Positions 17,817 to 54,193 of a DNA stretch of 64,000 bases are shown here, piece by piece. The stretch comes from Lepidurus packardi. Lineage: Eukaryota > Arthropoda > Branchiopoda > Notostraca > Triopsidae. The notes under the pieces were generated by a model, which was given only the letters and a program-made list of their open reading frames with translations, made no database searches and was not told the DNA's origin. Where the stretch lies: NCBI GenBank assembly GCA_023053545.1, contig JAKZAN010000002.1, forward strand, positions 2,526,375 through 2,590,374. Direction: 5' to 3'. Made by a program: the position numbers and the translations under genes. Position 1 is the first letter of the stretch, and each line of letters begins with the position of its first letter.

Positions 17817-18009
17817 GGGGGAGTGGGCCGATCCCGGAGGTACTGCAATACCGGGCCAACCCGCGGCGGAGGTGGAGCAAGCCCCAGCACTCCGCCAGTT
17901 TCCAAAAATCAGTTTAATATACTGGATTCCACATGGGAATCGTATCAGATATTAAGCTGATAAGAACAGATACTACACTTTGATCTTAGCCAAAAGGCCG
18001 AGAAGCGAT
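17817..18009 (-). ncRNA. U2: U2 spliceosomal snRNA
   Basis: Read on the minus strand, the gene begins ATCGCTTCTCGGCCTTTTGG at 18009, the invariant U2 5' end that pairs with U6. It continues through the branch-point recognition region (GTGTAGTATCTGTTC), stem-loop IIa (ATCAGCTTAATATCTGATAC) and an Sm site (GATTTTTGGAA). The 3' stem-loop IV follows, with CCCGGTATTGCAGTACC pairing to the downstream CTCCGGG. Length is about 190 nt, as expected. U2 base-pairs with the intron branch point in the spliceosome and should be transcribed by RNA polymerase II from a PSE-type promoter to the right of 18010. The exact 3' end is uncertain by a few bases. Whether this copy is functional cannot be proven, but all key elements look intact. 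Confidence 0.95.
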
Positions 18010-36444: not shown

Positions 36445-36564
36445 GCCAACGGCCATACCACGCAGAATGTACCCAGACTCGTCAGCTCCTGGAAGTCAAG
36501 CTGCGTCGGGCCCGGTCAGTACTTGGATGGGTGACCGCCTGGGAACACCGGGTGCTGTTGGCCT
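36445..36564 (+). rRNA. 5S rRNA: 5S ribosomal RNA, unit 1
   Basis: 120 nt from GCCAACGGCCATACCACGC to GGTGCTGTTGGCCT. The ends pair as helix I. The internal promoter is visible, including the box C region GGATGGGTGACCGCCTGGGA. A T4 terminator runs directly from the 3' end. It is transcribed by RNA polymerase III in the same direction as H3 and H2B. It sits inside the histone unit, a linkage known in some crustaceans. Confidence 0.97.
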
Positions 36565-45039: not shown

Positions 45040-45764
45040 GAGCTTTCGCCTGGAAGAAAAACCCAACGGCCCTTTTCAGGGCCAACCAATTTCTTGATGA
45101 AAGTTCAAACTACTTGCTTTACTTATGTCTTTCCGAACAGATAATTTTAAGGTTGCTGTTTTAAATATCGACTCTGGAGAGATTTTGAATACACACACAT
45201 TTGACTATTCCGTACGCTACTTTACTCCCGAGTTTCGTCATGTCTGAGAACCCGAAAAGCGTTGTTGGTGGACGGGTTAGGCCGAAGAGCGGGTCAGGCC
45301 GGGACTCAGCATTCCTTCGGCCTGTGTCATCCATTCGTGATCGTGTTCCTTCAAGGCGTAGATTTTTGAACAGTTGCAAATGATAGTCGATCATCTACAA
45401 GGGAAAAATCGAGATTGAACACGCGTCTATCTTTGAAAATGCTCAGCCCCTGAAGAGTCAGGGCTTAATGGGGACTGTTTGCCCAAAACAGAACGCGTTA
45501 GTAATGCGTATACCAAGATGTCATTGTATTGATTGTTGTTCACGAAGATATGATACATATGAAGCAAATAAAAATAGCCAAATATAGTATCGAACATTTG
45601 TGTGCTGAAAGGAAATGTCAATTCAGTAGTAATTGAATAACAGTCGAATAAACTTTAAAAAATGCCAATGCCATATGGTTTGTGAGATAACGCACCGCGT
45701 CTCAGCTCAGGCATAACCGCAACACCAAGTGCGATTCTTAGGCGGCTAATGATCTACATTAGAT

Positions 45765-45819
45765 GCCAACGGCCATACCACGCAGAATGTACCCAGACTC
45801 GTCAGCTCCTGGAAGTCAA
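45765..45819 (+). pseudogene. 5S rRNA: 5S rRNA, 5' part (nucleotides 1-55), split by the retrotransposon
   Basis: Identical to the first 55 nt of the intact copies and then abruptly replaced by retrotransposon sequence. The break falls inside the box A region of the internal promoter, so this part alone cannot be transcribed as 5S. Confidence 0.97.
45806..45819 (+). repeat. Left 14 bp target-site duplication of the LINE
   Basis: CTCCTGGAAGTCAA, 5S nucleotides 42-55, repeated at 52931-52944. Confidence 0.97.
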
Positions 45820-46451
45820 TTCCGATCGCTCCCGAGCAAAAGTCATTTTCTAGTTCCTAGTTCATCACGAGAGTTAGAATCCCGTGATAGCGTGTAGTTT
45901 TTTTTTGGACTTGATTATTAAAAAGGGAAAACGCATTCAAGCACATTTTCCTTACGACCGCGACCGCATCCATTGCATTAGTTAAAGGGTAAGCGACGTA
46001 TTAGTGTATAATTATTATTTTTTTTTCTATATATAGATATTATTTGCCTTGTTGTGTGAGTGTGCGTATTTCCCATTTCCCCCTTTCTTCCCAGCAAGCT
46101 GTCATTAAGCAGATCCCAGACACATAATCCAGATAGTCTGGTTAAATTCCTCCCCCCTTTGTTTCCCTTTTTTCTCTCAGTTTCGAACTCACACTGGAGG
46201 TATTGAACACGTGGCTATACCCTGTTTGTTCTTTTCTTCCCGTTTGAACTCACGGGTGGTAGCGAGCACATGGCCATACCCTGTTTGTTCTTTTCTTCCT
46301 GTTTGAACTCACACAGGTGAAGTCGGGTATTCTCATATTCGTGCCTTTTTCCTTGTTTGTTTTCAAAACAGATACCCCGCCTTGTTTTTCTGTTCAACCT
46401 ATATTTCAAATTTAATTTTGATACTTTTCCTTCTACTTTCTATATAAAAAA
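45820..46451 (+). promoter_or_regulatory. LINE 5' UTR with tandem repeats
   Basis: 632 bp. From about 46187 to 46327 a unit of about 60-65 bp is repeated a little over two times (TACCCTGTTTGTTCTTTTCT followed by TCC(C/T)GTTTGAACTCAC). Repeated monomers upstream of ORF1 are typical of internal promoters of LINEs. No core promoter motif is certain. Confidence 0.65.
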
Positions 46452-47756
46452 ATGGATAACACGGGAATTGGTCCAAAATTATCTCGATTGAACACGGCGT
46501 TCATTAATCTAGCACAGTTACCGTGGAACGACCTACCATCCCATTCTTTTTTTCATCAAAAATTAATGAAGGAGTACGGAGTGAAAGAAGAAGAGCTAGC
46601 GTGCATAGATATTGACAAGTACAACAAGACATGGAACTTAAAATTCAAAACCGAAAAGGCACTGGAAAAGTTTGTTGAAACATGCGGAGGCGAGATCCAA
46701 CTAACGCACAACAACGGAACGCTGTACTACTTGCCAGTAGGCACAACCGAGAGTAAGCACAGAATACTTTTACTATCCAAACTTCCATTCGAAATAGAAG
46801 AGAAGCATATCGTAGAAACACTGAAAGAATATGGAAAAGTCCTAAAATTTCGCAGAGAATTCTTCACTGGAAGCAATATCTTCAAAGTAGCTAGGGAGAG
46901 AGCCACCGTACAGTTTTTAATGACTAAAGACGTGCCTCCTTTCATAAACATCTTAGGCACATCTGTACAAGTTCAGTACCCTGGACAGAAAGAGCAGTGT
47001 AATTACTGCAAAACTCTGGGCCATAACCGTAATGGATGCCCTAAGCTAGCAACCAAGCAAAAACGATTCGAGGAGGATTTTCCGCCTTTAGTCGTTAACA
47101 GTGCTAACGCAGATTGTCAAACAGAGGGAGAAGGGTATAGTACATTGGCAACTCTTGAACCCCTTGGCAAAGTAGTAGAAGAGAATGAAGGGTCGAAGGA
47201 CCAGCCAACAGGGGTAGACACAGATTTGAATACTCTGGAGTTAGAACCTCCGGTAACACAAGACATGGAGGTGCAGGAGAGCACAACCAAAGTACCGGAT
47301 TCAGAAGCGGTTTTGATAACAGAAGAGGAGGAGGCCGAGGAGCCAGCGCTAGAAGTGCAGAATCGTTTCCAGTTACTAGGAACGCTAGGAGAAGAAGAAG
47401 TGAGACTCGGGGAAAGCGAAGGGTTTTTGATAGCAGAGCAGCAAAATGCAAACGAAAGCGAGGAAATCACAAGCCTGACGACACTAAGCCGGACACCCAA
47501 AGCAACTGACCAACAAGTTAGGGAAAAATCAGGACTCAACCTTCGTTTAAAAAAAATGCGTACAGATGAATATGAAAATTTAAAAACCCCAGTGAAATCG
47601 ATGGCCAGTCAAGAAGTTGAAAAGGAAGGAAATGAAGAAATACAGAAAGAACCAATTTTACCAGTAAAACCATCAACAAGTGCAAAAAAGAAGAACGTAC
47701 CAGCTACCAAAGCACAGAGAACTGCTGCGACGAGGGCAGGCAGAACCCCACGCTAA
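46452..47756 (+). CDS. LINE ORF1 protein (zinc-knuckle nucleic-acid-binding)
   Basis: 434 residues. ORF1 proteins coat the element's RNA and form the RNP used for retrotransposition. An RRM-like segment lies at about residues 105-175 (RILLLSKLPFEIEEKHIVET...ATVQFLMTKD). Directly after it, at about 178-193, stands a CCHC knuckle, CNYCKTLGHNRNGC (C-X2-C-X4-H-X4-C). The C-terminal half is acidic and low-complexity and ends in a Lys/Ala/Arg-rich tail. The ATG at 46452 follows an A-rich leader (ATATAAAAAA) and is the first long-frame start. The TAA stop at 47754-47756 is followed after one base by the ORF2 start. No close family match is claimed beyond the Tx1-like layout. Confidence 0.9.
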   Translation: MDNTGIGPKLSRLNTAFINLAQLPWNDLPSHSFFHQKLMKEYGVKEEELACIDIDKYNKTWNLKFKTEKALEKFVETCGGEIQLTHNNGTLYYLPVGTTESKHRILLLSKLPFEIEEKHIVETLKEYGKVLKFRREFFTGSNIFKVARERATVQFLMTKDVPPFINILGTSVQVQYPGQKEQCNYCKTLGHNRNGCPKLATKQKRFEEDFPPLVVNSANADCQTEGEGYSTLATLEPLGKVVEENEGSKDQPTGVDTDLNTLELEPPVTQDMEVQESTTKVPDSEAVLITEEEEAEEPALEVQNRFQLLGTLGEEEVRLGESEGFLIAEQQNANESEEITSLTTLSRTPKATDQQVREKSGLNLRLKKMRTDEYENLKTPVKSMASQEVEKEGNEEIQKEPILPVKPSTSAKKKNVPATKAQRTAATRAGRTPR

Positions 47757-47757
47757 T

Positions 47758-50700
47758 ATGGAAGCTTTAAACGAAGAAATTAAAATATGTAGTTTAAATG
47801 TCAGAGGACTGAAACAATCGATGAAACAAAAACTGATGACAAGCTTTATAGAACAGTATGAGCTAGATGTAGTGTGCCTTCAGGAACTCAATACGGATTT
47901 CAACCCAAATCCTGATAGGTTCAATCTTATTTGTGATGTGGGACCTGGAAAACCAGGTATAGGTATTCTCTATAGAAGGGAATTCGAATTAAAAAACTTT
48001 AAAACCTCGACGACAGGTAGAATCTTACAAGCAGTCTTTCAAAACTTTATCGTATTAAATGTCTATGGCCACCCAGGGAATCACCCAGCAAACGAGAGAA
48101 ATGAGCTTTTTAACATATTTTTACCAATTTACCTTAAAAATGAAAACATACACACAGTCTTAGTGGGCGATTTTAACGTAGTAATAGACGGAAAAGACGC
48201 TACTACCCCGCGCATGAATGATTTCCTAAAACGTGCAATAAACGGTTTTGAGCTAGTAGACGCATATCGTCTTCAATACGCGCTAACGACAGACTTTACA
48301 TTCATCCATTCCAAAGGAGGAGCCAGACTTGATAGGATTTATTTGGGCAAAGGTTTAAAAAATAACTTTCATAAAATAGAACACACAACTTTCGTAGGAT
48401 CGGACCATAAAGCGGTTATAGTAACACTCAAAGGCACTCTTGAAGACATAACAAGAGAAGAAATAAGACGAAGACCCAATAGATGGCACCTAAACCAAGA
48501 TATATTAAACGACCCGCGCTTCGTCATACACGTTAAGGAACTAGCTCAAGAGTTTACTACCCGATTGGATCCAAAGAAACCATACATAAGGTACTGGAAT
48601 AATTTTAAGAAAAACATTCAGTTATTTGCCAGGAGCCTCCAGCAAGAAATACAAATTGAGCAGAATGCACTAAGAGCCTTTTACAAGAGCTGTTTCGATG
48701 AGGCAAGCGAGAACGTCAGTGCCAATGCAGGGAGTTGGGAGGATTTTGTATACTATAGACAGAAATTGAGAGAAATGGAAATACGCCAAATACAGGATGC
48801 ATTATACAAGAGCCGAATAGATAGTATACAAAAGGGTGAACAAGCGAGTCTGACCCACGTACTGGAAGAAAAAAGGAAAGCTAACCAGAGCATTTTTAAA
48901 AGCTTAAGAAGACCAGATGGGGAACTCCTTTACAAGGAAGAGGACATTAGAGCTTTATTCGAAAACCATTTCCAAACAATCTACACACCGGAAGATAGAG
49001 TAGAAGAGACGGAAGTGTTTGGAACAGCCTTTCTAGAGATGGCAATATCCCACGATGACGAGGAAAATTTAAAGCAAACGATAACGTGGAGAGAAGTTCG
49101 ATCAGCAATCAATTTATTACCCCGCAATAAGTCCCCAGGGCCGGATGGGCTGAGTGTTGAATTTTATACAAGTTTTTCAGAGATTTTGTCCCCACTACTG
49201 GTTCTTTTAGCCAATGAGGTTTTCCAAGGGGGACTCAAAGAGGGTGACAATGACAGCCTAGTAAAACTTTTAGCCAAAGGAGGAGATAAAAAGAACATAC
49301 AAAACTGGAGACCGATCGCACTACTAAACTCAGACTACAAAATTTTATCAAAATTGCTCGCTGAGCGAATTAAGCCATATCTAACGCAGGTAATCGTTCC
49401 GCATCAAACTGGGGGGGTACCAGGGAGGAACATTACGGACAACTTAGCCAAAATTAGGAATGCAATAGAGTTTGCAACAGAAAGGTACAGACAATATCCA
49501 GAAAACTTTAGTAATTATAAAACCAATTCAATTGCGAGACTAGGCGTCATCGCACTAGATCTCGAGAAAGCATACGATAGGGTGAACAGAAACTATTTAT
49601 TTAAAATCATGAAACTGTACGGCTTCCCAGACTACATCATAAATAGTATACAAGGACTCTACGAACATGCGAGATGCAAAATCTTAATCAATAAAATATC
49701 CGCCAAGCCGGTAAACTTGAATAGAGGAGTAAGACAAGGGTGTCCTTTATCTCTTTATTTATTTAGTATATATATAAACCCTTTATTAACCAAATTAGCA
49801 CAGGAATTGCACGGGTTTGATATCATAGGCGAAAAACAGATAGTAATGGGTTACGTGGATGATCTAACAATACTAACAGCTAAAGAGACGGATTTTAAAC
49901 TTATAGAGGAAACCCTGGAAGCCTTTTGTAACTCATCGGGAGCAAAAATTAACTGGAAGAAATCAGGCATTCTTCCTTTTGGAGCATGGCAGGGGAGAGA
50001 GGACTGGGCCATGCCGAAATTGAAAACTAAACTAGATTTGCAGATTCTAGGGATTAGCTTCAAACAAAAGATGTCCGAAACAATCTCCAGTAACTCAAAA
50101 ATTATGGCACAATACGCAACCAAGAAATTCTACGTCTGGAAAACAAGATTCTTATCCATTCATCAAAAAGTAAGCTACGTCAACCTTTATATTTTACCAC
50201 TTTTTTATCACCTTGCAAGAATTTTACCAATTACAAAGCCCTGCATAAAACTGATGAAGCAAAAAGTGGGGACCTTTCTATGGGGCGGTAGGCTGGAGAG
50301 ATTAGCCTATGAAGAAATTTTAAACGCACGTACAGACGGGGGACTGGGCCTCGTGGACCTAGAGAGCCAGTGTAGAAGCTTCCAGTTGCAGAAACTTTGG
50401 AATGACTCGCAATCAACCGACAGAGCTACGAAAAGAATTTTAACGTATTTTACAGCTATACCATGGCGTAAAATATACCAAACACCAAACGGACCCAAAG
50501 CGGAAGTCATACCCATGTCATTAAAAGACGCGGTCACAACTATGGTTGGTCTAGGACCTTTTTTAAAACGCGACCAAGCTTTCCCAAGAAAAGAAGTGTA
50601 TCAATTTTTAACGGCAAAGAAATTAAGAACACCCAAGATTGTAACTAAATACGCAGACAATGATTACCCAACGATATGGAAAAACCTTACCAGTCAAGTT

Positions 50701-51126
50701 TTAACTCCGGAAGTTAAAAGTCATGTATTTTATCAGGTGCACGACATTCACCCTACCGCGGAGAGATTAAAAAGATGTAGACAATCAGTGACGGACGTAT
50801 GCGACCAATGCCAGTGCAAAGAGAATATTTATCACACATTTTTGTGCAAAAAGCTTCAAACAGCCAATGATTGGGCAAAGAGTGTCCTCACTCGGGTACT
50901 ACCGAATACACCCATGTCGAGAGCATGCATGCTCGATTTCCAGACGACCGGAATGGAGAACCACCAAGTGGGTGTGTGGTTTATAGCCGAGTACACATAC
51001 CACCTGTGGAAAGCCAGAAAAAAAGGTGATGGTGCAGTAGCCGAAATAAGAGCTAGAATGAAACATCGTTTAGAAATGCAAAGGAAGATACAACCAGCGC
51101 TAGCAACACTTGGCAACATATTTTAG
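47758..51126 (+). CDS. LINE ORF2 polyprotein: AP endonuclease and reverse transcriptase
   Basis: 1,122 residues from the ATG at 47758. The same frame is open upstream to an ATG at 47680 inside ORF1, but conserved sequence begins with ICSLNVRGL. The AP-endonuclease has N14, E43 (CLQEL), D138/N140 (LVGDFN), D192 (ARLDRIYL) and SDH 215-217 (GSDHKAV), all catalytic positions intact. Reverse transcriptase motifs: NKSPGPDGL, NWRPIALLNSDYKILSKLLA, ALDLEKAYDRV, RGVRQGCPLS and the active site GYVDDL (YVDD 699-702). A C-terminal Cys/His motif near 1015-1032 (CDQCQCKENIYHTFLC) resembles those of L1/Tx1 proteins. The enzyme nicks the target and primes cDNA synthesis there. Translation probably depends on termination-reinitiation at TAATATG. 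Confidence 0.97.
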   Translation: MEALNEEIKICSLNVRGLKQSMKQKLMTSFIEQYELDVVCLQELNTDFNPNPDRFNLICDVGPGKPGIGILYRREFELKNFKTSTTGRILQAVFQNFIVLNVYGHPGNHPANERNELFNIFLPIYLKNENIHTVLVGDFNVVIDGKDATTPRMNDFLKRAINGFELVDAYRLQYALTTDFTFIHSKGGARLDRIYLGKGLKNNFHKIEHTTFVGSDHKAVIVTLKGTLEDITREEIRRRPNRWHLNQDILNDPRFVIHVKELAQEFTTRLDPKKPYIRYWNNFKKNIQLFARSLQQEIQIEQNALRAFYKSCFDEASENVSANAGSWEDFVYYRQKLREMEIRQIQDALYKSRIDSIQKGEQASLTHVLEEKRKANQSIFKSLRRPDGELLYKEEDIRALFENHFQTIYTPEDRVEETEVFGTAFLEMAISHDDEENLKQTITWREVRSAINLLPRNKSPGPDGLSVEFYTSFSEILSPLLVLLANEVFQGGLKEGDNDSLVKLLAKGGDKKNIQNWRPIALLNSDYKILSKLLAERIKPYLTQVIVPHQTGGVPGRNITDNLAKIRNAIEFATERYRQYPENFSNYKTNSIARLGVIALDLEKAYDRVNRNYLFKIMKLYGFPDYIINSIQGLYEHARCKILINKISAKPVNLNRGVRQGCPLSLYLFSIYINPLLTKLAQELHGFDIIGEKQIVMGYVDDLTILTAKETDFKLIEETLEAFCNSSGAKINWKKSGILPFGAWQGREDWAMPKLKTKLDLQILGISFKQKMSETISSNSKIMAQYATKKFYVWKTRFLSIHQKVSYVNLYILPLFYHLARILPITKPCIKLMKQKVGTFLWGGRLERLAYEEILNARTDGGLGLVDLESQCRSFQLQKLWNDSQSTDRATKRILTYFTAIPWRKIYQTPNGPKAEVIPMSLKDAVTTMVGLGPFLKRDQAFPRKEVYQFLTAKKLRTPKIVTKYADNDYPTIWKNLTSQVLTPEVKSHVFYQVHDIHPTAERLKRCRQSVTDVCDQCQCKENIYHTFLCKKLQTANDWAKSVLTRVLPNTPMSRACMLDFQTTGMENHQVGVWFIAEYTYHLWKARKKGDGAVAEIRARMKHRLEMQRKIQPALATLGNIF

Positions 51127-51180
51127 AATAAAAACACGAAATGTGACTAAAAAGAAACGTAGAACCTCTTGTAAACGTAA

Positions 51181-51229
<49 letters not shown>

Positions 51230-51364
51230 CCTTCACAGCATCAAAAAGAAAAATTGAAGAAAGAAAACCTAAATAAATAAAAATAAAATAAAAGATAAGA
51301 AAGAAAATAAAAATAAAGCAAGGAAATAAGAAATAAAAAAAAAAAAAAAAAAAAAAAATAAAAA

Positions 51365-51407
<43 letters not shown>

Positions 51408-51738
51408 TTAGAAACGTAGTTTCCAAAGGAACTGGCTGAGTGCTAATAAGTATTATGGTTAAAAAAAAAAAAAAAGGAAACGACAGTTAGAAACTTAGGC
51501 TCCTGAGACACTGTTTGAACCCCGAGAGAATATTTTGAATACCCAAGAAACTATATCCCCATTCTTCTCATTAAAAAGAAAGTAGAACACCAAACTTTGT
51601 TAAACCCTATTTACTAACTAATGAAAATTATCCTCAAACAAAACAAAATATAAGTAACGTAGGAGTAACGTATTAGTAACGTAGGATCCAAATAAACTTA
51701 ATGATCCAAATCTGATTGCTAATAAGTTGCTTGCTTAC

Positions 51739-51775
<37 letters not shown>

Positions 51776-51931
51776 GCCAGTTAGAAACATATGCTCCCGA
51801 GAAACTGTTTCAATCCCGACAGGATATTTAGAATACCCAAGAAACTATATCGCCATTCCCCTCATTAAAAAGAAAGTAGAACCCAACTTTGTTAAAATCC
51901 TATTTGATAACTAAAGAAAACCTATCCCATA

Positions 51932-51977
<46 letters not shown>

Positions 51978-52868
51978 ACTACTACTATTAACAAAATCCA
52001 CATACAAAAGAAGAAAGAATTGCATACTAACCAAACGAAAACTAACAAAATATAACACCAAACTGAAAGAACACTAACATTTAACAGGAAAAAAAAATCT
52101 AACATTAACTGAACAGTTTATTAGGCGAAAATTGTCTAAACCATCAAAACATCATCAGCAAATGCAATCATTGCAACAAATTAAGGGAGAGGGTAATTTT
52201 GGGACACCAATTGTTAGAAGTACCTTACCACAAAGTCAGCTTGGTGCGCGTCATCGACATAGCGAACAAACTCACCAAGGAAGAAAATGTCATGAAAGTC
52301 ATGAAAGGATAACCACCAAATATTGCGGGAATACAAACTCCTGGAACGCGAATTACGTCGGAGCTGATTAAAACACAATGTGGAAGTTTTACACTATAAG
52401 AGACACGAATTTGGATACCCAAAGCAAAATCATCCAACCACAAAGTCAAATTATACTTGACATTGCCAGAACGAACATACTCATCAAAGATTAAGAAGAC
52501 CAAACAACACCCGAACAGGCGATAGCGACGAAAGTTGAGGACTACCATGACGAAGTTAGACAACAAATGAAACCGTACAAGTTGTCTGGAGCACAATCAT
52601 AGAGGCACCAAACCCAGAACCCTGTCACCAAACCCAGAACACACTCATCGGAGTTGTCAATAAAACAAAGCAGGCAACAAATGTTGTCCCATGGGCAAGC
52701 TCAAATTCAGTGCCAAGTAGTGCCAAGTAGTTCGAAATATTAAGCAACCGTGCATTCCCTGTATCACAGAAAGTAACCTGTAGCGTGATAATCTCTTTAA
52801 TTCCAACTATTTGTAACCCTCGCAAATGCAAAATTATTCGACTCAAAATTGCAATACAATTGTTTTAA

Positions 52869-52930
<62 letters not shown>
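51127..52930 (+). other. LINE 3' UTR with internal A-tracts, a duplicated block and terminal poly(A)
   Basis: Long A-runs occur near 51183-51225, 51338-51404, 51740-51773 and 51934-51974, and the final tail is at about 52869-52930. A block of about 155 bp (51484-51640) recurs with many differences at 51778-51935; shared words include AGAATACCCAAGAAACTATAT-type sequence and ATTAAAAAGAAAGTAGAAC. Each copy follows an A-tract. 52100-52860 has ordinary composition and a 123-codon open frame on the minus strand (52225-52596) with no family I recognise. Confidence 0.8.
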
Positions 52931-52933
<3 letters not shown>

Positions 52934-52944
52934 CTGGAAGTCAA
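52931..52944 (+). repeat. Right 14 bp target-site duplication of the LINE
   Basis: CTCCTGGAAGTCAA directly after the poly(A) tail, identical to 45806-45819. Confidence 0.97.
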
Positions 52945-53009
52945 GCTGCGTCGGGCCCGGTCAGTACTTGGATGGGTGACCGCCTGGGAACACCGGGTGC
53001 TGTTGGCCT
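52931..53009 (+). pseudogene. 5S rRNA: 5S rRNA, 3' part (nucleotides 42-120), downstream of the retrotransposon
   Basis: 79 nt identical to the 3' part of intact copies. Because nucleotides 42-55 are duplicated, this piece keeps the entire internal control region (box A, intermediate element, box C) and the T-run terminator. It could still recruit TFIIIA/TFIIIC and start in the LINE poly(A). Confidence 0.96.
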
Positions 53010-53091: not shown

Positions 53092-54193
53092 CTTTTATAC
53101 ACTGAAATTGTAGACTTTTCTTTCTGAGCCGTTAAAGTGCGTTCCACTTGCTAAAATATTGGTGCAATGTTGCTGTATTGGTGCAATATTGTTTGCACTC
53201 AGTCTATATATTATACACTGAGTCCTGCCTGTGCAACTGCACGGATCGTGTTCCACTTACAGGATGCGCACTGGAAAGTGCAAAACAATGCTGCTTTTTC
53301 TGGACATGATTCTGAGAAGGTATCTGAAAAGCAAGCTCGAAATACAGTCTACGAAAGAAAACATCTGCTGTCATTTTACAGCCTTCTAACACTGGATCCT
53401 TGGCCGGTACATCGAGATCCGAAACTAGTCACCCATCGAGATCGGAAACTGGTCACCCATCCAAGTTTCAAACATTGTGCTGTTGTCCATGAATCATAAT
53501 GCAAGAGATCTTTTGCTCGTTTTCTCGTCGATTTATTTTCCTACTGTTTGTATTGCGAGGGTGGAATAAATAATAGCCAGGTTTATCGACATGTAAGATT
53601 TTGCACTGTAAGACTTAGAAAAGTTCCATGTAGTAGTATTTATGCCAATTGGGACGCGAGCTGACTAAGCCCGACCCCGGTCCTGAGTTGGCCGTGGAAA
53701 CACACCCTAGGGTGTTGTTGAATATAGTTGACAACAGTAGTTCGTCTTTATAACCAGTCACCCCAAACTAACTAAAAGAAAGTTTATTAGCTCATCACAT
53801 CATTTTTAGTCCACACTCATTTATAAAAAAAAAAAAGCAAGTAAACTACTAGAATCTGAGGATTTCAGGCTGTACTTTTCACTTTGCTTTGGAACATTCC
53901 TCGCATTACCGCGGTAGGTGCTTCCCATTATCCGGTACTTGTAGCGTTGTTCCGGTCTGTCTGGAGAGCCTGCACCGAACAGACGGCTTATGGGACAAAA
54001 GGGCAGCAACGCTAAGAGTTTCAGCTTTCGGGGTTAGGTGGCGGTTATAAATTCCACTGATTTATAACAAACGGTCAGAAATAGTATGCTCTAATGAATA
54101 GCCATATCTTTTGAGTTGTAAGCTTTCGGGACGCAATTGTTGGCCCTGAAAAGGGCCGTTGGGGTGGGTCAGACGGCAAAAACAAACCCAATT

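Follow-up and report, generated by a model that had tools for sequence, protein, structure and literature searches.

The window, that is, the whole stretch of 64,000 nucleotides that was analysed, maps to contig C2 of the host genome (G000, 108.6 Mb) and contains five histone-5S units, each with H4, H3, H2A, H2B, and a 5S rRNA gene. By their Rfam matches, the host 5S gene is 119 nt long, and four of the five copies are intact, the other one being split by a LINE. In insects, clusters of histone genes and of 5S genes frequently lie together (PMC11354594). The window also holds a complete U2 snRNA gene at 17818-18009 on the minus strand (Rfam, 180.9 bits). The features of the insertion and its surroundings are the following.

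45765..45819 (+): 5S rRNA gene, nt 1-55, the 5′ part, ending with the left duplication copy; identical to the intact 5S gene at 36445-36563
45806..45819 (+): target-site duplication, left copy, 14 bp (5S nt 42-55), by sequence comparison
45820..52930 (+): LINE, 7,111 bp, delimited by its junctions with 5S and by the end searches of G000
45820..45929 (+): element head of about 110 nt, found at the 22 recovered 5′ ends (used as query); also nearly all of a short element of about 115 bp
46452..47756 (+): ORF1, 434 aa, an open frame; at residue 183 a zinc knuckle of CCHC type (by eye)
47758..51126 (+): ORF2, 1,122 aa, with Exo_endo_phos at 11-217 and RVT_1 at 511-739 (Pfam) and a C-terminal Cys/His motif near 1015 (by eye)
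51127..52870 (+): 3′ UTR of about 1.7 kb with several internal A-tracts, from the sequence
52871..52930 (+): terminal poly(A), 60 nt, from the sequence
52931..52944 (+): target-site duplication, right copy, 14 bp (5S nt 42-55), by sequence comparison
52931..53008 (+): 5S rRNA gene, nt 42-119, the 3′ part, by sequence comparison
53565..53590 (+): segment of the 5S spacer, from AATAAA (53565) to the CGAC at which the spacer piece of another locus, L071/L077, ends, by comparison

The two copies of the 14-bp duplication, CTCCTGGAAGTCAA, match perfectly, and the window has no occurrence of this 14-mer outside the 5S genes and the two junctions. The initial annotation read the locus as 5S nt 1-55, 7,111 bp of retrotransposon, and nt 42-120. 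Both junctions, the length, and the perfect duplication stand, but the gene ends at nt 119 by Rfam, the 3′ remnant retaining nt 42-119. The spacing of the histone units was also said to close to the base, but the excess across the occupied unit is 7,123 and not 7,125. The unit preceding the insertion measures 4,659 bp, 2 bp less than its 4,661-bp neighbour, and hence the spacing closes only once these 2 bp are counted. The insertion divides the internal promoter region of the 5S gene.

Both frames are open, and the endonuclease motifs of ORF2 (LNV, QE, GDFN, D, and SDH) and its reverse transcriptase motifs (DLEKAYD and VDD) align to their counterparts in human L1 ORF2p. We take the catalytic residues to be among these aligned motifs, in agreement with the coding capacity first ascribed to the element. 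ORF1 has no Pfam match, and its structure model is poor (pLDDT 39). The 3′ UTR contains an internal repeat of about 128 nt (51461-51588 and 51755-51882, 88% identical). A 5′ ribozyme or tRNA-like head in nt 1-110 was considered and rejected, there being no convincing Rfam match and no excess of folding over shuffled sequences. Rfam returns, in 45700-46500, a weak match to the broken 5S gene (E 3.4) and a chance-level match on the opposite strand (E 2.9). Against shuffled sequences, element nt 1-111 show no gain in folding (z 0.47), and folding is somewhat better (z -2.38) for a longer stretch that takes in 5S nt 1-55. A B-box-like stretch, AGTTAGAATCC, can be seen in the head, by eye only.

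The best relative of ORF2 in the PDB is human L1 ORF2p (220 bits), to which it aligns over residues 3-883, with R2 proteins scoring at most 94 bits. ORF2 combines an endonuclease of apurinic type with a reverse transcriptase, is L1-like in sequence, and has no Pfam match for an RNase H. This combination supports a predicted affinity with the L1 group, the closest among the PDB chains that make up the comparison set. The N-terminal Exo_endo_phos domain (ORF2 residues 11-217) sets the element apart from the RLE type (R2, R4, NeSL, Utopia), and the reverse transcriptase, the poly(A), and the 14-bp duplication set it apart from Dada DNA transposons. In the viral and prokaryote contig collections, no relatives were confirmed.

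The host genome was searched with element nt 1-200, a query containing no 5S sequence, and all candidates were scored. Among the 23 matches (the window and 22 others), whose boundaries were all read, 22 start at element nt 1, each directly preceded by sequence derived from 5S that stops at nt 55. The remaining match, L034, comes from within the element and begins at its nt 43. The share of 22/22 is not built in, because the query is free of 5S sequence. Seven of these ends (L036-L042) carry an extra T at the joint with nt 55, and a few of the occupied 5′ halves of 5S carry substitutions. In L043, the 5S gene is degraded, and only its nt 37-55 precede the element; this copy is counted as lying in a 5S gene because 5S nt 42-116 follow the element.

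A search with the 3′ end, with all candidates scored and all matches read (the window and 16 others), gives 17 matches. Thirteen are true ends, and 11 of these 13 consist of poly(A) followed by 5S nt 42. The other matches lie inside copies (L054 and L056) or have no 3′ end (L061 and L062). In the two exceptional ends (L050 on C4 and L053 on C2), poly(A) is followed by non-5S sequence, that of L050 lying beyond a gap of 100 N. No exact target core is found past L050 or L053 among the matches listed, and therefore both seem to lie at the edge of an array, where a misassembly or a deletion may have occurred. Scans for the junction patterns with up to two mismatches find 15 5′ junctions and 17 3′ junctions of poly(A) and nt 42, the latter being the 11 from the end search plus six (L064, L069 twice, L070, L071, and L072). 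As these patterns contain the target, they count junctions and do not test the share. The reversed patterns have no match in G000 at up to two mismatches. The A-runs at the 17 3′ junctions vary from 3 to 60 nt. The target core itself occurs at 124 places at up to two mismatches, some of which may be occupied 5′ halves, and at least 100 are exact and uninterrupted among the matches listed, versus 22 occupied 5′ halves. Recurrent insertion at one exact 5S position, suspected from the single copy in the window, is thus confirmed by 22/22 5′ and 11/13 3′ ends, and the junctions across the genome rule out chance insertion. The element is a site-specific, 5S-directed LINE that inserts with base precision in an arthropod.

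The copies of ORF2, which the initial annotation proposed to collect together with their junctions, give the same picture. The search yields at least 47 matches, a lower bound, as 41 of the 418 first-look candidates were scored. Six matches at 24-29% identity were left out as other LINEs, and joining neighbours by eye leaves at least 20 places. Twelve places hold over 800 ORF2 residues, and every one of them shows a junction at this exact 5S base on one side or both, so that the large copies do not lie mostly at unrelated sites. A thirteenth place, C3:2111651 (about 350 residues of ORF2), has the 5′ junction. Junctions on both sides, judged by position, are found at 8 of the 20 places, on C2, C3, C4, and C5. 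The copy on C9 runs into a gap of 2,500 N. Seven ORF2 fragments, each of at most about 355 residues, have no recovered terminus (C5:12450072, C2:1761505, C100:38274, C58:96850, C2:1608154, C3:748225, and C3:4304647).

Six copies of ORF2 were compared for dN/dS. Between the window type and the C5/C9 type, which share the insertion site, dS is 0.33-0.38 and dN/dS is 0.13-0.19, ratios that show purifying selection between the ORF2 subfamilies. For pairs of the same type, dN/dS is higher in most cases and comes from fewer changes (1.14 on 5 changes for window/C4, 0.18-0.53 for the others), and there is no uniform constraint. Some 3′ ends that are only 75-76% identical to that of the window (C16, C41, C2:1036217, and C38) also join nt 42. 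With divergent ORF2 types and 3′ ends at one base, the site has therefore been kept through the divergence of subfamilies. The C38 copy was considered as a subfamily of about 65% identity and rejected as such, its clean pieces being 92-93% identical and its 66% stretch having nine stops.

Not all copies represent separate insertions. Duplicates are seen among the tandem copies on C3, which have a period of 9.27 kb, and among L036-L042, so that the counts exceed the number of independent events. For the 22 5′ ends (leaving out L034), the 62 nt upstream of the 5S gene fall into 7, 9, and 13 groups at 80, 90, and 97% identity, respectively; these groups are not a count of insertion events.

Besides full-length copies, there are truncated and short ones. 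L072 is 5′-truncated and lies between 5S nt 1-53 and nt 42 onward of a distinct, degraded 5S gene. L064 (G000:C1:7761355-7761470) is about 115 bp long, consists of the LINE head and a tail rich in A, and sits in a degraded 5S gene; it is possibly a non-autonomous SINE-like derivative. L018, a relative with an internal deletion, comes after a complete 5S gene and ends at nt 42. At L071/L077 (G000:C4:13468050-13470500; joint at C4:13468178), about 343 bp of 5S spacer are followed by 23 A and then by 5S nt 42. The spacer piece (98.6% identity over 286 aligned nt) stops 20 nt past the position of AATAAA in the spacer of the window; here the signal is AAAAAA, and sequence other than 5S forms the 5′ flank. 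The simplest reading of this one locus would be transduction by a read-through element RNA, 5′-truncated on insertion.

Further observations concern the neighbours of some copies and the 5S genes themselves. L067 (G000:C3:764000-765300) has about 130-160 bp of the element 5′ end in 5S, followed by an apparent intron-bearing cuticle gene of insect type. This stretch matches Pfam Chitin_bind_4 ("Insect cuticle protein"), a family that we take to mark arthropods, and it agrees with the first attribution of the element to an invertebrate. L068 (G000:C1:2587400-2589000) has about 300 bp of the 5′ end in 5S, followed by mitochondrial-like DNA with broken frames and nad4-like motifs. These motifs read under tables 1, 4, and 5 and partly under table 2, so that the piece does not tell the genetic codes apart and is left aside as evidence on the host. 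L021, L053, and L054 (G000:C2:2602624-2610316) show a tandem duplication of the last 1.15 kb or so of the 3′ UTR including the poly(A), in a copy that ends in non-5S sequence and has an interrupted ORF1 frame. Only parts of the first 500 nt or so, with no ORF1 match, are present in L063 (C4:1017752), L065 (C5:12433518), and L066 (C64:130500), and the opposite strand of L063 carries an RNase H-like ORF that is unrelated. A different type of 5S sequence, which in one comparison is 63% alike to that of the host, is found on C76, C78, C91, C135, C174, and C228, with a tandem period of about 180 bp on C135 and C174; these contigs possibly come from a contaminant or food organism. C9 and C25 show an alternation of 5S units (about 1,361 and 1,125 bp) with longer spacings (e.g., about 4,377 and 4,657 bp), in which, for the part of C9 that was read, the histone genes sit. 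A tardigrade host was considered and rejected; the pattern (GATGGGTTTT)4 has no match in the host genome, and the cuticle gene points to an arthropod.

We conclude that the element is almost certainly an autonomous, 5S-rDNA-specific non-LTR retrotransposon of the L1 group in an arthropod. Its junctions fit what target-primed reverse transcription would leave. The apurinic-type endonuclease would recognise 5S DNA and nick the antisense strand between nt 41 and 42, and the 3′ OH at the nick would prime reverse transcription of the polyadenylated element RNA. The sense strand would then be cut after nt 55, and fill-in would yield the 14-bp duplication. We infer this order of nicks, and also that the endonuclease alone would set the site. 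The element RNA may at times read into the 5S spacer and use the AATAAA of the spacer, and the multicopy 5S genes within histone repeats would serve as a safe haven.

The same end points might arise if one or a few chance insertions in 5S had been multiplied by unequal crossing-over and gene conversion, mimicking specificity. The flanks shared by the C3 tandem copies and by L036-L042, and the array-type flank common to seven 5′ ends at 90%, are what one would expect of such a process. However, there are at least seven flank groups at 80% identity, the A-runs differ in length, the truncated L072 sits in a 5S gene of its own, and ORF2 types at dS 0.33-0.38 and 3′ ends of 75-76% identity meet at one base, all of which makes this origin extremely improbable. 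Ty targeting of Pol III genes involves factors. The present target is likewise transcribed by Pol III, and its cut at nt 55 presumably falls within box A of the internal promoter. Hence Pol III factors or 5S chromatin bound by element proteins, rather than sequence recognition by the endonuclease, might guide the element, and LTR elements such as Ty do target Pol III genes (PMC5911963). Yet the junctions are base-identical on both sides, unlike those of factor-guided insertion, and degraded 5S genes are also occupied (L064 and L072), although the decay may postdate insertion; such guidance is unlikely.

Specificity for 5S might also have been acquired by a LINE of R1 or Jockey type, outside the L1/Tx1 group. 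Jockey-like elements accompany 5S arrays in Tribolium freemani (PMC11202950), but the alignment to human L1 ORF2p over residues 3-883 and an ORF2 with no RNase H match make this ancestry quite unlikely. Within the preferred reading, one may go further and tentatively propose an arthropod lineage of 5S LINEs, either independent of Mutsu or of very old shared origin, living in histone-locked 5S genes and occasionally mobilising spacer RNA. We regard this wider proposal as plausible but still rather doubtful.

Base-precise 5S targeting by a LINE with an apurinic endonuclease is extended into arthropods. In a single genome, there are numerous occupied and free sites, and the same base is shared by more than one subfamily, which makes this a good system for questions on how the endonuclease reads its target. 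The element also bears on whether 5S targeting has a single or repeated origin, and on the coexistence of a parasite and essential genes in one histone-5S array.

Human L1 is not site-specific. Its ORF2p (PDB 8sxt) resembles that of the present element in endonuclease, reverse transcriptase, domain order, and motifs, and both elements have a poly(A) tail; they differ in ORF1, which in the present element carries a CCHC motif and matches no Pfam family. Dada-5S elements also insert in 5S rRNA genes (PMC8869645), but Dada are DNA transposons with a 6-7 bp duplication (PMC3706591), whereas the present element is a retrotransposon, ends in poly(A), and duplicates 14 bp of its target. The Jockey-like LINEs of T. 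freemani are, like the present element, arthropod LINEs associated with 5S arrays, yet they interrupt satellite arrays carrying 5S, and the available excerpt describes no base-precise insertion within the gene (PMC11202950). No arthropod LINE of L1/Tx1 type inserted in 5S is named among the literature matches listed, most subscription papers and Repbase lying outside this search.

LINEs directed to 5S genes are best known from fish, and the Tx1 clade includes Mutsu, Keno, and Dewa. Mutsu is reported by Kojima and Fujiwara in 2004 and by Locati and colleagues in 2017, as cited in PMC11202950 and PMC3706591. The Tx1 and R1 clades are described as target-specific with apurinic-type endonucleases (PMC4640811), and Mutsu is listed for 5S genes (PMC3706591), those of zebrafish being its target, with a length of about 5,500 bp and two ORFs (PMC11202950). 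Compared by description, Mutsu and the present element are both non-LTR retrotransposons with two ORFs in 5S rRNA genes, but the former is an element of about 5.5 kb in fish (PMC11202950) and the latter one of 7.1 kb in the histone-linked 5S genes of an arthropod.
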